NCBI RefSeq assembly: GCF_022834715.1
Contig: NZ_BQKC01000001.1
Location: forward strand, 284,501-348,500
Source of the DNA: Granulimonas faecalis
GTDB lineage: Bacteria > Actinomycetota > Coriobacteriia > Coriobacteriales > Atopobiaceae
Reading direction: 5' to 3'
DNA: 64,000 nt
Shown here: positions 21,479 to 27,917 of the stretch, one piece after another
Numbering within the stretch: the stretch's first letter is position 1
How the letters are laid out: every line of letters begins with the position of its first letter
Translations under genes and position numbers: made by a program
The notes under the pieces: model-generated
What the model saw: the letters and a program-made list of their open reading frames with translations, nothing else
The model's database searches: none
Told to the model about the DNA's origin: nothing

Positions 21479-21694
21479 GGATTATCGTCTTTTTTCTGCC
21501 CTCTAACCCTCGGTATGCATCCGGTGTCCCCTGTGGCGCGTCATGTCCGGCCGAGGCACCCGCCATAACCGGCCGTCCTGCCGCTCCCTCTGGCATGAGT
21601 GACGAGCCCGCCGCGCCGCCGTGACTCGGTCGGGAAGCCATTGGGGCCGATAAGCGCGCCACCGTGGCGCGTCGTCCGTGTCGCCGCGGCATGG

Positions 21695-21731
21695 AAAGGG
21701 GTCAGGAGGCGTGCGGCCCCTCGACCCCTTT
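21695..21731 (-). terminator. Probable terminator of the dehydratase operon
   Basis: AAAGGGGTC (21695-21703) and GACCCCTTT (21723-21731) form a 9-base perfect stem with a G/C-rich loop. Read on the minus strand it ends in TTTCC, about 70 bases past the stop at 21799. Confidence 0.5.
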
Positions 21732-21798: not shown

Positions 21799-23616
21799 TC
21801 AGTCCAGGGCCTCCAGGCCCAGCAGGGCCGCACCCAGGGCGCCGCAGAGCTGGGAGTCCTCGCTCGTGGTCACCGGCGCCCCCAGGGCCTCGCCGATGGC
21901 GGCCACAACGCCCTCGTTGTTGGCGACGCCGCCGGTCATGAGGTAGGGCGGCTCTGCCTTCACCCGCTTGGCCAGGCTGCGGATCTTGCTGGCGACCGAC
22001 TGGTCGAGGCCGTGGATGATGTCGGGCACCGGCGTGTCGTCGGCCACGAGGGAGACCACCTCGCTCTCGGCGAACACGGTGCACATGGAGCTGATCTTCA
22101 CGTCCTTCTTCCACTCGAGGCCCTGGCGGCAGAACTCGTCGAGGGGCAGCTCCATGGTGCGGGCCATCATCTCGAGGAACCGGCCCGTGCCGGCGGCGCA
22201 CTTGTCGTTCATGACGAAGTTCACCACGCCGCCGTCACGGTCGAGCTTGATGACCTTGGAGTCCTGGCCACCGATGTCCACGATGGTCATGGCCTCGGGG
22301 GCCAGGGCATGGGCGCCCCGGGCATGGCAGGTGATCTCGGTGATGGAGGTGTCCATGTCGGGGATGGAGTCGCGGCCGTAGCCCGTGGCCACGGCGAGCG
22401 TCACCTGGTCGCGGGAGATGCCGGCCTTCTCGAGCACCTGATCGATGGCCTTGCGGGCGCTCTCGGTGGCCTTGGAGCCGGTGGGCAGGATGACGCTGGC
22501 CACCACGGTGCCCTCGCCGTCCACCACCACGGCGTCGGTCGAGGTGGACCCGGAGTCCACGCCCATCACGTACACGGGGCCGTTGCCGGCCGAGAACCTC
22601 ATCTGGTCTGTCATACCCACCAACGTTTCGTCGAAGGCCTTGAGCCTGGTGCTGAGCTGGCCCGCGCTCTGACGCGTGCCGTCCGTCTCCACCTTGAGCA
22701 TGGGGACGGGGGAGTCGGCCGAGACGGACAGGTACTCGAAGCCGTAGTAGTCGCAGAACTTCATCGTGTGGTACACGATGCCGCGCTGTCCCGCGGTGCC
22801 GATCTGCTCGGAGCGCCGCTCGACGTCGGCCATGCGCAGGCACGGCACCTGGTCGAGCAGGGCACCGGCGTACCACTGCACGAAGGAGTCCATGGGGTCG
22901 GGGCCGGGCGCCTGGGCGTCGCAGGCCTCGTGGCACGGGCGCTGCTGGGGCACGCGGCCCAGGCGGGCCGGGGGAGAGGCCACACGGCGGCCGCCGGTGC
23001 AGGTGAGGTTCTCCACCGGCACGTCGAAGGCCTCTGCGGCCGCCTCGAGGAGCGAGTCGGGCCCGTGGGCGCCCAGCAGGGTCACGCGGGCGTCCTGGCG
23101 CGCCACCGGCGGCTCGAACGACGCGAGGGCGCGACCCACGTCGAAGCTCGCGCCCGTGAAGCCCTCCCAGGCCGATGCCAGCCGGCGGAGCTCCGCCTCC
23201 AGGCGGTGCCGCTCGGCCGGGCCCGTGAGGTGCGGCAGGTCCACGAGGAACAGGAAGTCCAGGCACTGCTCGGCCTCGAGCACGTCGTAGATGCGGCGCA
23301 TGACGTCGCAGCAGCTTGTGAGCACGAGGGCGCGGACGTCGTCGCGCAGGGCGTAGGAGATGAGCGACTTGCCGAACCCGCACAGGTTGGGGTGGGCGAG
23401 GCGGTCGGCCTCCTCGAAGCTGTCGGCCTCGTAGGTCACCGGCTCGCAGGCGGCCCCGTAGCCGGCGAGCAGCTCCACCGGGGCGTACTTGCAGGCGTAG
23501 TGGACCACGGGCGCCCGGTCGAGGGCGCGCGTGCGCACCGACTCGGGGGCCTCGTCACGGGCGCCCGGGGTGTCCACCGGCGTGGGGCGCGGCACGGCCG
23601 CGCGGCGCGGGCTCAC
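21799..23616 (-). CDS. 2-hydroxyacyl-CoA dehydratase subunit fused to BadF/HgdC-type activator ATPase
   Basis: A 605-residue fusion. Residues about 30-320 resemble an HgdB/D-type dehydratase component, with HYACKYAPVELLAGYGA, CGFGKSLISYAL and TSCCDVMRRIYDV. Residues about 340-605 are an activator ATPase of the BadF/BadG/BcrA/BcrD family, with MGVDSGSTSTDAVVVD, TGYGRDSI, DIGGQDSKVIKLD and NDKCAAGTGRFLE. The activator uses ATP to inject an electron through an Fe-S cluster into the dehydratase. The GTG at 23616 overlaps the stop of the upstream gene (GTGA), so the two are coupled. Substrate unknown; a 2-hydroxyacyl-CoA or a benzoyl-CoA-reductase-like role cannot be told apart here. Confidence 0.85.
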   Translation of the reverse strand: MSPRRAAVPRPTPVDTPGARDEAPESVRTRALDRAPVVHYACKYAPVELLAGYGAACEPVTYEADSFEEADRLAHPNLCGFGKSLISYALRDDVRALVLTSCCDVMRRIYDVLEAEQCLDFLFLVDLPHLTGPAERHRLEAELRRLASAWEGFTGASFDVGRALASFEPPVARQDARVTLLGAHGPDSLLEAAAEAFDVPVENLTCTGGRRVASPPARLGRVPQQRPCHEACDAQAPGPDPMDSFVQWYAGALLDQVPCLRMADVERRSEQIGTAGQRGIVYHTMKFCDYYGFEYLSVSADSPVPMLKVETDGTRQSAGQLSTRLKAFDETLVGMTDQMRFSAGNGPVYVMGVDSGSTSTDAVVVDGEGTVVASVILPTGSKATESARKAIDQVLEKAGISRDQVTLAVATGYGRDSIPDMDTSITEITCHARGAHALAPEAMTIVDIGGQDSKVIKLDRDGGVVNFVMNDKCAAGTGRFLEMMARTMELPLDEFCRQGLEWKKDVKISSMCTVFAESEVVSLVADDTPVPDIIHGLDQSVASKIRSLAKRVKAEPPYLMTGGVANNEGVVAAIGEALGAPVTTSEDSQLCGALGAALLGLEALD

Positions 23617-24965
23617 GCCACCGTCCTTCTCGCGGGCGTGCCGTGGTCCCGGCGCTTGTGGAGCATCTCGAGGAACGCCCCCAGACGCGTGGCGGCCTGG
23701 CCGCCGGGGAACTTGCCGCGGTTGCAGCCGTCGCCGTCCAGGGACAGGCACGGGTAGCCGTCGGCCTCCAGGGTGCGGCGCATGAGCTGCGAGCAGCCCA
23801 TGGTCTCCTTGCAGCCCCAGTGGCAGAACACCACGGCGCCGTCGGCCCCGGTGCGCTCGCAGAGCTCGCGCATGCGCTCCACGCGGCGAGACGCCGGGCC
23901 GTTGTAGGAGTTGCGGATGAGGCGCTCGGCCATGGCCAGGTAGGGCTCGTGGGCGCCGTCGTGGTGCCAGCCGTCGAGGCTGGGCTGGTCGAAGCACATG
24001 TCGCTGGCGATGACCTGCTGGTCGGTGTTCACGTCGATCAGCTTTTGGAGCGGCACCGAGAAGAACGGCGCCGTGGCGCTCCACACGAGGTCGATGCCGT
24101 CGTAGGGCTCGGCCGCCGCGAGGTCGGCCGCCAGGGCGTCCACCATGTCCTCGGCCACCTCGGTGCCCAGCATGGTGTGGAGCACGAGGGCGTACTGCAT
24201 CTCGAGGCCCATATTGTTGCGGACGAACCGCCCGCGGCGGAGCGGGAGCGTGCCCACGAGGGTGTCGAGCGTGCGCTGGGAGCGGGCCACGCGGGCGCGG
24301 AGCTCGTCGCCGTCCACCGATCCGCCGTAGACCTCGCAGAGCCGGGCCTCGAGGTCGCGGAGCTGGTCGGCCACGTAGGCGCAGCCCTCCTCGGTGTACT
24401 CGGCCGGCACGTCGATGTAGCTCTGGGGGCAGCCGTAGCGGTCCGCGAGGAGCCGAAACGACAGGTTGTTGGCGTCGCAGGCCACCGAGCAGTTGGCGAT
24501 GAGGCGCGGGGGCGCCAGCACGCCGGCGAGGGCGCCGCCGAGCAGTACCTTGTGGAAGGAACAGTAGGTCTCGGGGATGCCGCTCTTCTCGGCACTCTCG
24601 ATGAACGCGCTCTCGGCGTGGGCCCCCGCCACGAAGTTCGCGGCCGCCTCGGCGATGAGGGGGTAGAGGCCCAGGCACTGGAAGATCTCGTTGGGCATGA
24701 AGATCGAGGTGAGCACCACGCGGTCGGGGTGCTCGAGGGCGCAGGTCACCGAGTCCAGCGCATGGCGTGCGGCCATGCGCGAGGACCTGGGGGCCCAGCG
24801 GTCGGGCAGGAAGCGCGTCTGGGCGCGCTTGACCTGGAACGCCTTGAGGAGCCAGAACCCGGTGATGTCGGGCCGCTCCTCCATGACGTCGTCGATGGCG
24901 GCGGCCCAGGCGTCCAGGATCTTGATCCCGAGCTTCTGGTCGTCGCTCTTGGTGGTTTGAGCCAT
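23613..24965 (-). CDS. 2-hydroxyacyl-CoA dehydratase-type subunit (HgdB-like)
   Basis: A 450-residue protein of the 2-hydroxyglutaryl-CoA dehydratase D-component family. It has HALDSVTCALEHPDRVVLTSIFMPNEIFQCLG and FHKVLLGGALAG, then NCSVACDANNL and YNGPASRRVERMRELCE. It also has VVFCHWGCKETMG and LDGDGCNRGKFPGGQAATRLGAFLEML, whose cysteines would hold a 4Fe-4S cluster. It probably pairs with the dehydratase half of the downstream fusion as two catalytic subunits. It starts 21 bases after the M16 peptidase gene behind an AAGGAGGACC site. Confidence 0.85.
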   Translation of the reverse strand: MAQTTKSDDQKLGIKILDAWAAAIDDVMEERPDITGFWLLKAFQVKRAQTRFLPDRWAPRSSRMAARHALDSVTCALEHPDRVVLTSIFMPNEIFQCLGLYPLIAEAAANFVAGAHAESAFIESAEKSGIPETYCSFHKVLLGGALAGVLAPPRLIANCSVACDANNLSFRLLADRYGCPQSYIDVPAEYTEEGCAYVADQLRDLEARLCEVYGGSVDGDELRARVARSQRTLDTLVGTLPLRRGRFVRNNMGLEMQYALVLHTMLGTEVAEDMVDALAADLAAAEPYDGIDLVWSATAPFFSVPLQKLIDVNTDQQVIASDMCFDQPSLDGWHHDGAHEPYLAMAERLIRNSYNGPASRRVERMRELCERTGADGAVVFCHWGCKETMGCSQLMRRTLEADGYPCLSLDGDGCNRGKFPGGQAATRLGAFLEMLHKRRDHGTPARRTVA

Positions 24966-24986
24966 GGTCCTCCTTGGTACGCGGCC

Positions 24987-27917
24987 TCAGACGAGGCGCG
25001 ACACCTCGAGCTCGGCCGTGGATGCCGCTATGATGTCCGCGCCTCCGATGACGCAGACGCCGCCCGTCTCGCCCACCTGGGCCACGGCGGCGCCGAGGGC
25101 GCGCACCGTGTCGACCGACGAGTCGAGCACCTCCTGCCTGACCTGGGCGCGCCACGCGGGCCCGCGGCCCGAGATGCGCAGCTTGTCCTCGCGCCGCATG
25201 GCGGCACGGGGCTTCACCGGCGCGTCGAGGCCCGCCACCGTGGAGATGACGAAGCCCTCCAGGTCGGAGGCGGCGGGGTCCCACCCGGAAAGCCACGCGC
25301 CCGCGCCGGCATATGCGGCGAGGGTCGGGTCCACCGCAGGGTCGCGGTAGGAGTAGAACCCCATCACCGAGGCCGGCGTCCCGCTGAAGCCGGCCCCGTA
25401 GGCGCCGCCCAGGACGCGCACCTCGTTCCAGAGGTACCCATAACTAAGGGCCCGGGACGCGACGAGCCAGGAGCCGTTATAGGCAACCGGGTCCCGGGGC
25501 AGCGTGAGGCCGGCGGCGGCGCGGCCCACGAAGCACACGTTGGCAGGGATGGTGAACGCCTCGCGGGCGGGCTCGGGCTCGGGGACCTCCAGCTGGGTCT
25601 TGGTGGCATGGCCGTCGTTCATGAGGCCGAGGTCGCCCGCCGCCTCCCAGTAGCGCTCCACGTCGCCGGGGGCGCCGGCGAACGAGGTCTCCAGCCCGTC
25701 GCCCTTGAAGATGCGGCCCTGGAGGTTGCGGAGCACCTCGCAGAGCGACGCGGCGCGGCGGTCGAAGGAGTCGAGCAGCGACACGAGGAACCGGTAGAAG
25801 CCGATGCCCGAGACGGCGTCGGCCACGAGGGCCCCGCGGGAGTAGTAGCTGCGGCAGCGGGCGAGCGCGGCGCTGTGGCCGGAGCCGATGAAGCCCTGCT
25901 CCATGGCCACACGGCGCTGGGTGAGGATGGCGCGGATGCGCTCGGTGTCCTTGAAGAGCGTCTCGAGGCACACCTCCATGGGCAGGCTCGCGAGGCCGTC
26001 GACCTTCTCGGAGAGGGAGGCCGCGCCCACCACGAACCTGGGCCGCGCCACGCCCAGGGGGTCGTCGGCGTCGCCGTAGGTCTCGATGAAGGTGGAGAAG
26101 TCGCCCAGGGTCGACTCGAGCAGGCAGTCGAGCTCGGCCGCCGTGTGGCGCCGGGTGTCGAGCTTGCCGAGCAGGCAGGCGAGCACCTGGGCGTAGGGGA
26201 GCTCGGGCCACGCGAGGCGCTCGAGGTCGAAGTACGCATAGGTGTAGTCGATGCGGTGCGTGTCGAGGTCGTACACATGGCAGGGGTAGGGCGCCTCGAC
26301 CTCGCGGGAGGTCACGGGCGCCGGGGCCTCGGCGATGTCCGCTAGCGTGAGGTGGGGCAGCTTGGCGACGTCGGCGGGGTCGTCGGGGCGCTGCTGCTCC
26401 TCCTTGAGGGCCCGGGCCTCCTCCATGACGTCCTCGAGCCACGCGGTGTCCATGGCCTCCTTGATGCGGGCCAGGTGCTCGGCCTCGCGGGCCGTGCCGG
26501 TGCCCTCCTGGGGCTCCACGCACACGAGGGCGCTGTGGGGGTTCTCCACCACGGCCTCGCGCAGCAGGCGGTCGAAGATGCCGAGGCCCATGGAGTCGCC
26601 GAGGTCGCGGCAGGCGTCCTCGTAGCGCACGTAGGAGAGCGGGTCGTCCTCGTCGTAGAGCCAGCTGCCCATGGCGCACACGGCCAGGGCCACGCCGTCC
26701 GGGTAGCCGAAGTCGCCCTCGCGCAGGTTGAACTCTGCCTGGGCCAGGGAGGCCTGGAGGCGGTCGCAGGGCACCCCGGCGTCGGCCAGCTCGGCGCAGG
26801 CACCCTCCACGAGGGCGCGGAGCCTCTCGGCGACGCCGGGCTTGGCGCCCTTGAGCTCGAAGACGACCATGGGCTGTGCCATGCCGTCCACCACGAACGC
26901 GCAGGCGTCGTCGCCCAGGTCGGCGTCGATGATGCGGCGCATGAGCGGGGCCTCGTTGGAGCCCATGAGGGTGTCGAGCAGGATGTCGGCGGCCAGCACG
27001 CGCTCGCGGTCGGCCCATGTGCCGATCACGTAGCCCAGGCCCACGCAGCGGTTGTCGGGGGCGGTGGCCAGCGGCACCTCGAGGGGCGCGGGCGACACGG
27101 GCCCTTGCATCGCGAGCTCGTTGGGGCCCTCCTCGCCGCGCACCTCGGCGGCCGAGAAGCGCTCGTCGAGGAAGGCGAGCTCACGGTCGATGTCGATGTC
27201 GCCGTAGAGCACGGTGTGGGAGTTGTCGAGGCGGTAGTGGCGCCGGTGGGCGTCCACGAACTCCTCGTAGCAGAGGTCGGGGATGGCCTCGGGGTTGCCG
27301 CCCGACTCGTGGCGGTAGCAGGTGTCGGGGAAGAGCTGGCGCTTGAGCTCCATGAACAGCACGTCCTCGGGGTCCGAGAGCGCGCCCTTCATCTCGTTGA
27401 ACACGACGCCGTTGATGGTGAGCGGCGCGTCGGGCGACTCCAGCTCGTAGTGCCAGCCCTCCTGCTCGAAGATGCGGGGGCGGCGGTAGATGTTAGGGTC
27501 GAGCACGGCGTCCAGGTAGACGTCCATGAGGTTCTCGAGGTCGGCCACGTTGGTGGAGGCCACCGGGTACATGGTCTTGTCCGGGAAGGTCATGGCGTTG
27601 AGAAACGTCTGCATGGAGCTCTTGAGCAGGTTGACGAAGGGCTCCTTCACCGGGTACTTGGCCGAGCCGTCGAGTACGGAGTGCTCGAGGATGTGGAAGA
27701 CGCCCGTGTCGTCCGCGGGCGGCGTCTTGAAGGCGATGGAGAAGGCGCGGTTCTCGTCCGCGTTGGCGAGCCACAGGAGCCGGGCCCCGGTGGCGCGGTG
27801 GGTGAGGACGTAGGCCCAGCCGTCGACCTCGGGCACCTCCTCGGCGCTCACGACCTCGAAGCCGGCGTGCACCTCGCCCGGGGCGAGCTCGTCTGCGTGG
27901 GTGGTCTTGGGGTCCAT
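24987..27917 (-). CDS. Insulinase-family (M16C, PreP-like) zinc metallopeptidase
   Basis: A 976-residue peptidase with the inverted zinc motif HILEH (about residues 75-79) in DDTGVFHILEHSVLDGS, followed by KYPVKEPFVNLLKSSMQTFLNAMTFPDKTMYPVAS. The distal glutamate lies in NLMDVYLDAVLDPNI. Length and the two-half, four-domain layout match presequence-protease/falcilysin-type enzymes that degrade short peptides in a closed chamber. There is no signal peptide, so it is probably cytoplasmic and fits peptide catabolism. The ATG at 27917 follows GAGGAGGACCC. Only 21 bases separate it from the dehydratase gene, suggesting one operon. A TATAGT box about 35-40 bases upstream on this strand may be its -10. 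Confidence 0.92.
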   Translation of the reverse strand: MDPKTTHADELAPGEVHAGFEVVSAEEVPEVDGWAYVLTHRATGARLLWLANADENRAFSIAFKTPPADDTGVFHILEHSVLDGSAKYPVKEPFVNLLKSSMQTFLNAMTFPDKTMYPVASTNVADLENLMDVYLDAVLDPNIYRRPRIFEQEGWHYELESPDAPLTINGVVFNEMKGALSDPEDVLFMELKRQLFPDTCYRHESGGNPEAIPDLCYEEFVDAHRRHYRLDNSHTVLYGDIDIDRELAFLDERFSAAEVRGEEGPNELAMQGPVSPAPLEVPLATAPDNRCVGLGYVIGTWADRERVLAADILLDTLMGSNEAPLMRRIIDADLGDDACAFVVDGMAQPMVVFELKGAKPGVAERLRALVEGACAELADAGVPCDRLQASLAQAEFNLREGDFGYPDGVALAVCAMGSWLYDEDDPLSYVRYEDACRDLGDSMGLGIFDRLLREAVVENPHSALVCVEPQEGTGTAREAEHLARIKEAMDTAWLEDVMEEARALKEEQQRPDDPADVAKLPHLTLADIAEAPAPVTSREVEAPYPCHVYDLDTHRIDYTYAYFDLERLAWPELPYAQVLACLLGKLDTRRHTAAELDCLLESTLGDFSTFIETYGDADDPLGVARPRFVVGAASLSEKVDGLASLPMEVCLETLFKDTERIRAILTQRRVAMEQGFIGSGHSAALARCRSYYSRGALVADAVSGIGFYRFLVSLLDSFDRRAASLCEVLRNLQGRIFKGDGLETSFAGAPGDVERYWEAAGDLGLMNDGHATKTQLEVPEPEPAREAFTIPANVCFVGRAAAGLTLPRDPVAYNGSWLVASRALSYGYLWNEVRVLGGAYGAGFSGTPASVMGFYSYRDPAVDPTLAAYAGAGAWLSGWDPAASDLEGFVISTVAGLDAPVKPRAAMRREDKLRISGRGPAWRAQVRQEVLDSSVDTVRALGAAVAQVGETGGVCVIGGADIIAASTAELEVSRLV

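Follow-up and report, generated by a model that had tools for sequence, protein, structure and literature searches.

A tethered activator ATPase in a candidate low-potential reductase of Granulimonas faecalis and other gut anaerobes

The superfamily that holds the 2-hydroxyacyl-CoA dehydratases and the benzoyl-CoA reductases (BCR) contains enzymes that attain potentials which, outside it, are known from nitrogenase-like systems. A central question is how their activator ATPase associates with its target, and whether this happens one time in the life of the enzyme or anew for each electron. A CoA-transferase gene is usual for the 2-hydroxyacyl-CoA dehydratases, and DCCP forms a homodimer whose reductase is a protein of its own. 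According to one source (PMC11971306), a dehydratase uses the same activated electron again through many turnovers, whereas every electron costs a class I benzoyl-CoA reductase ATP hydrolysis; the BCR and MBR types stay permanently complexed with their activators.

The window, a stretch of 64,000 nucleotides of the Granulimonas faecalis genome (contig NZ_BQKC01000001.1), carries two adjoining genes of this superfamily, here called A and B, with the following features:

21799..23616, minus strand: gene B, a fusion of 605 aa with a GTG start (from Pfam matches and the open reading frame)
22612..23505, minus strand: front half of B, residues 38-335, BzdN/DCCP-like and predicted to be of the double-cubane type
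22576..22611, minus strand: linker of B, residues 336-347, between the front half and the activator half
21802..22575, minus strand: back half of B, residues 348-605, an activator ATPase of the HgdC/HadI/BzdQ type
23613..24965, minus strand: gene A, an HGD-D subunit of 450 aa, HadB/BzdO-like active-site subunit
24969..24975, minus strand: clean Shine-Dalgarno (SD) sequence AAGGAGG of gene A
24987..27917, minus strand: gene of an M16C (PreP-like) peptidase, just upstream of A

The HGD-D match of B falls into two pieces (residues 42-162 and about 235-332), and A has a full HGD-D match (E 1e-53). The GTG start of B overlaps the stop of A by four bases (GTGA), so that the second, overlapping subunit gene described by the first-pass annotation is indeed present. 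Downstream of B, at window positions 21694-21731, lies an inverted repeat (AAAGGGGTC...GACCCCTTT) that has no T run and is possibly a terminator.

The 605-residue fusion of a subunit and its activator, which had been proposed from the letters of this one stretch, is real. A profile found 118 full-length fusions in the loci examined, belonging to many genera, with the same joint and a single open frame through it, which rules out the removal of a stop codon between the halves by a sequencing error and leaves a sequencing or assembly artefact with a negligible probability. Most of these loci had been picked for their similarity to the complete fusion (80 of 565 matches), a choice that favours fused forms, and a fairer survey used the front half of B as the sole query against 299 genomes of a Blautia genome's phylum. 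There, 31 of the 299 genomes matched at E 1e-20 or better: 18 with fused forms (open frames of 539-605 aa), three with broken forms, and ten with unfused or distant forms. The subunit-activator fusion occurs in many gut anaerobes, and the genome survey that the first-pass annotation suggested thus found it widely. The phylogeny that it also suggested, built for the activator half, gave no single clean fused clade, as stand-alone activators fall inside the fused rows (L133 and L134 are fused, though labelled stand-alone). A search by title and abstract, mostly outside subscription journals, returned no paper on this fusion or its internal start.

A and B mostly occur together: in 60 genomes, a full B was found in 20, A in 20 (E 1e-30), and both in 19, with genome G032 having B without a detected A and genome G046 having A without B. 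The G032 locus (L024), in which B directly follows the M16C gene and forms the longest branch of the tree, has no gene A match at E 1e-8, so this genome of 1.0 Mb possibly holds B without A. In G046, the gene A match (G046:C79:11225-12511, 46%) comes with no full B found in the genome, which may be an assembly gap. Selenocysteine at in-frame TGA codons was considered and rejected for L136, L138, L139, L123, and L124, where the visible TGAs are the stop of A or parts of broken frames.

The label of a dehydratase subunit first given to the front half of B is not supported, and this half resembles the reductases BzdN and DCCP rather than HadC. Seven cysteines (C42, C79, C102, C103, C206, C259, and C288) are invariant in 80/80 aligned B sequences, and six of these (C42, C79, C103, C206, C259, and C288) align with the DCCP cysteines of the double-cubane [8Fe-9S] site. 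Five of the six are also aligned in BzdN, whereas HadC has no cysteine at the position of C206 and so has at least one of the six absent. Loss of cluster cysteines in homologues, which would have pointed to a non-enzymatic role, is refuted by their invariance in 80/80 A and 80/80 B sequences (split frames kept L074 out of the A alignment and L113 out of the B alignment). In the AlphaFold model of B (mean pLDDT 83.6), the front half matches BzdN (Z 23.9, rmsd 3.1, 280 aligned), DCCP (Z 23.8, rmsd 3.1, 280 aligned), and HadC (Z 22.8, rmsd 2.8, 276 aligned); these model-based scores are nearly tied and alone do not separate BzdN, DCCP, and HadC, or a reductase from a dehydratase. It is the cysteines that speak for the double-cubane type. 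The intermediate helical domain, which helps to form the CoA channel in BzdNO according to a passage of the same source (PMC11971306), is mostly lost in B, so that CoA binding may differ and the likeness to benzoyl-CoA reductase may not extend to the substrate.

In gene A, C135, C163, and C385 are invariant (80/80 aligned sequences), S87 is kept in 79/80 and E106 in 80/80, and H138, H382, and W383 are conserved too. The three cysteines are the predicted ligands of a [4Fe-4S] cluster in which one site is open. S87 and E106 align in HMMER with S37 and E55 of HadB, which are catalytic. The equivalent pair of BzdO, Ser44 and Glu65, lies at the water ligand of the cluster (from a passage of PMC11971306). 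At the acid/base His131 of BzdO, the A subunits of the fused family have Asn166 and those of the unfused sisters Ala. The AlphaFold model of A (mean pLDDT 90.5) matches HadB (Z 37.2, rmsd 2.7, 375 aligned) and BzdO (Z 35.2, rmsd 2.8, 385 aligned). The window's genome also holds a second gene A (L149:4316-5653, minus strand, 445 aa), which keeps the HWGC/CSYH signature, has Asn in place of S87, and has no B nearby; it is possibly an alternative subunit that shares the genome's one B. Comparable distant second A matches were found in G002, G019, and G022, and second matches close to the first in G005, G020, and G031. Near one B, loci L045, L047, L048, and L049 each have two gene-A-like ORFs, a tandem duplication of the active-site subunit.

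The activator identity of the C-terminal half, also part of the original proposal, is borne out by the BcrAD_BadFG match (residues 352-600, E 2e-63) and by a TIGR00241 score above the curated cut-off (251.1 vs 125.4 bits). C473 (NDKCAAGTG) and C512 (CTVFAES), presumably the two cluster-binding cysteines of the activator, are invariant (80/80). The activator half is 42-43% identical to HadI/HgdC and nearest to HadI by sequence score, and its model matches MbdQ (Z 36.4), HgdC (Z 36.1), and HadI (Z 34.4). No other stand-alone activator was found among the PF01869 matches in the window's genome, which is 96% complete, and a missed one is possible. The other PF01869 matches there are a kinase-like ORF, in whose translation both cluster-cysteine motifs are absent, and a 1537-aa activase (L150) with two BcrAD_BadFG stretches and DUF2229. 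Like B, the latter holds an activator-type ATPase inside a long multi-domain protein; unlike B, it has no HGD-D match at E 0.001 and another architecture.

Unfused relatives exist as well. Among nine of the ten unfused or distant front-half matches (G227 left out), A stands beside B in 9/9 and an activator gene adjoins the pair in 7/9 (L151-L155, L157, and L159), the remaining two loci having partial activator matches only. The unfused operons of Bacillota are ordered B-A-C, as three separate genes, and share with the fusion the A signature (CSxH, CDA, HWGC) and the six B cysteines (each kept in at least 8 of the 9 rows, one of which is cut at a contig end). They differ from it in a Ser at the position of C102 and in a longer intermediate region of B: about 60 (59) alignment columns of unfused B, in or near the intermediate helical domain, are missing in fused B. 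In five genomes of another Actinomycetota family (L166-L170), unfused B and A lie side by side, with no activator within 8-10 kb around them.

Among the tested genes adjoining A-B in the window (M16C peptidase, ABC ATPase, EamA transporter, and one without a Pfam match), no CoA-transferase was found, in agreement with what had been noted before. The M16C peptidase gene adjoins A-B in 27/27 Atopobiaceae-type loci and in 0/54 others. As a partner of A-B it was rejected: the gene is near-universal in the window's family (35/37 genomes) though B is present in only 17/37, which speaks for position rather than partnership, and the peptidase is probably just a positional neighbour. The gene neighbourhood was likewise rejected as a guide to the substrate, since the clostridial genes outside A-B vary (by appearance, we take them to be DegV-like, ammonium transporter, FtsW/RodA-like, and recombinase genes) and no pathway can be read from them.

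Most clostridial relatives have an in-frame ATG in the linker, 7-11 codons before the activator core, at the natural start point of a stand-alone activator. For the analysis of this putative internal start, the 118 rows were thinned to 85 at 88% identity. An ATG lies at -13 to -5 in 48 of these 85, counting the weak one of the window. Pairing with the 16S tail upstream of the linker ATGs averages -7.2 kcal/mol, vs -3.5 kcal/mol at 1399 in-frame ATGs elsewhere in these genes. Measured against synonymous recodings of the same peptides, the SD has a mean z of -0.75 (48 rows), and a repeat with controls gave -0.70 for 49 linker ATGs vs 0.03 for 1334 others (Mann-Whitney p 1e-8, overstated because the rows share ancestry). 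At least 5/7 matches to AAGGAGG at a spacing of 4-11 precede 30/40 linker ATGs vs 107/872 controls. The signal is strongest in the main clostridial clade (linker ATG in 32/33; SD core in 29/32 vs 72/670 other in-frame ATGs) and is also seen in a second clade (8/11 and 7/8); the corresponding counts are 5/26 and 2/5 in the Atopobiaceae-type rows, and 3/15 and 1/3 in the diverged fused rows. In one row (L112), the linker SD is much weaker than its own recodings (z +5.4). Parsimony on the linker-start state needs nine changes, with the window row scored as positive at the cut-off of -5, which we judged to be noise.

An internal in-frame start that gives a separate subunit is established for Cas11, made from cas8/cas10 genes (from a passage of PMC11899642). 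A conserved in-frame start with its SD is present in most clostridial relatives, where to judge from these signals the gene probably yields both the fusion and a free activator, but not in the window, whose linker has ATG, GTG, and TTG codons, none with more than 4/7 SD matches. The window's nearest relative (L010) has no ATG in the linker. The internal start looks to have been lost in the window's lineage and, with no other stand-alone activator seen in the genome, the tether looks permanent here. The clostridial ATG and SD could instead be a relic of the fusion event or cause a translational pause between the domains, with no free activator made. They would then simply mark where a stand-alone activator would begin, the SD strength does come in good part with a K/E/G-rich peptide (recodings often reach about -6 kcal/mol), and the diverged fused clade is mostly without both. 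A relic should decay, however, and the ATG is retained almost throughout the main clade although it stands at varying distances from the activator core and agreement across the seven preceding residues is no more than 19-62%; codon choice favours the SD beyond the peptide, as the difference from the control ATGs indicates, and a pause requires no ATG. We regard a relic or pause as rather unlikely.

Taken together, A and B appear closest to the two catalytic subunits of class I benzoyl-CoA reductase, or to DCCP. The NCBIfam scores are far below every equivalog cut-off (HadB and HadC, 33.1 of 750 and 21.5 of 700 bits; bzdQ, 187 of 380 bits; DCCP NF040772, 59.2 for B and 45.9 for A against 350 bits; the curated cut-offs for BcrA, BcrB, and BcrD are not reached either), so that no known enzyme name is allowed. 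In place of the separate, transient activator and the beta subunit without the double-cubane cysteine set that define HAD, A-B has an activator fused in frame and a B with all six cysteines. At the level of cysteine positions, it has the pair of a six-cysteine subunit and a three-cysteine open-site subunit that would mark a class I BCR, without the active-site histidine of the latter. The six cysteines of DCCP are found in B only.

On balance we lean towards A-B being an ATP-driven low-potential reductase with a tethered activator, which in most clostridial relatives would also have a free activator and in the window would be an (A B)2 assembly. We infer a route in which two activator domains, the back halves of B, would dimerize around one [4Fe-4S] cluster and be reduced by ferredoxin or flavodoxin. 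On ATP hydrolysis, the activator would push electrons into the putative double-cubane [8Fe-9S] site of the front half of B, which would store them before passing them on to A; substrate reduction would take place there, at the open-site [4Fe-4S] cluster. The tether would keep the activator docked, which would suit an enzyme that needs an ATP-energized electron at every turnover. In most clostridial relatives, the free activator from the linker start would complete a 1:1:1 complex of A, fusion, and activator; in the window's lineage, with the internal start lost, two fusion chains would have to supply the activator dimer, for an (A B)2 assembly in which one dimer serves two catalytic pairs. We see about even chances that all of the following hold: one gene making both fusion and free activator in a 1:1:1 complex with A, an obligate tether in the window's lineage, and, in the window's genome and its nearest relatives, an orphan second gene A whose product may swap in and so change the substrate.

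The first-pass annotation expected a permanent tether to change the usual electron-injection cycle. The tether is real, but it is less of a paradox than it may seem, as BCR and MBR activators are permanently complexed; together with the use of ATP for each electron, this would make a tether more fitting for a reductase than for a dehydratase. A true (R)-2-hydroxyacyl-CoA dehydratase with a tethered activator, in which the double-cubane would merely store the injected electron, would account for the likeness of A to HadB, which is no weaker than that to BzdO (Z 37.2 vs 35.2), for the S37/E55 pair of HadB that A keeps, and for an activator half nearest to HadI. We nevertheless consider it unlikely in view of the HadC position without a counterpart to C206, the very low HadB and HadC scores, the CoA-transferase not found beside A-B, and a B in which the intermediate helical domain is mostly missing. 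That A-B has no small-molecule substrate and serves as an ATP-driven activase for the metal centre of another protein, or as a sensor, is improbable: the full active-site set of A (three Cys, Ser, Glu, His, and Trp) is kept over wide divergence, even though there are no pathway neighbours, four genomes have an orphan second gene A, and corrinoid systems provide a case of ATP-driven reductive activation of other proteins.

The preferred reading of A-B as a reductase would add to the superfamily a reductase-type member with a tethered activator, encoded in relatives by a probable two-product gene. If the two-product reading is true, A, fusion, and activator at 1:1:1 would parallel, with two genes, the benzoyl-CoA reductase that is built from four. 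The data point to a fairly widespread candidate low-potential reductase of gut bacteria under an ill-fitting dehydratase name. With the natural tether present both in lineages that probably have a free activator and in lineages that lack one, the mode of association can be put to a direct test by comparing obligate-tether with two-product forms.

Among the described systems, the class I BCR enzymes BzdNOPQ/MbdONPQ would share with A-B a double-cubane subunit, an open-site [4Fe-4S] subunit, and a pair of activator ATPases, but they consist of four separate proteins with two different activator subunits, whereas A-B consists of two proteins. Their intermediate domain is present in both subunits and mostly missing in fused B, and BzdO has His131 in the active site where gene A has Asn166. 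DCCP and DCCP-R (6ENO, 7YYL) have six cysteines that align with the front half of B, and the ATPase partner of DCCP is homologous to the back half; DCCP is a homodimer, in contrast to the predicted A-B heterodimer, in which A has only three of the cysteines. Compared with HadBC + HadI and HgdAB + HgdC, A resembles HadB, but the activator that is separate in those systems is fused in B.
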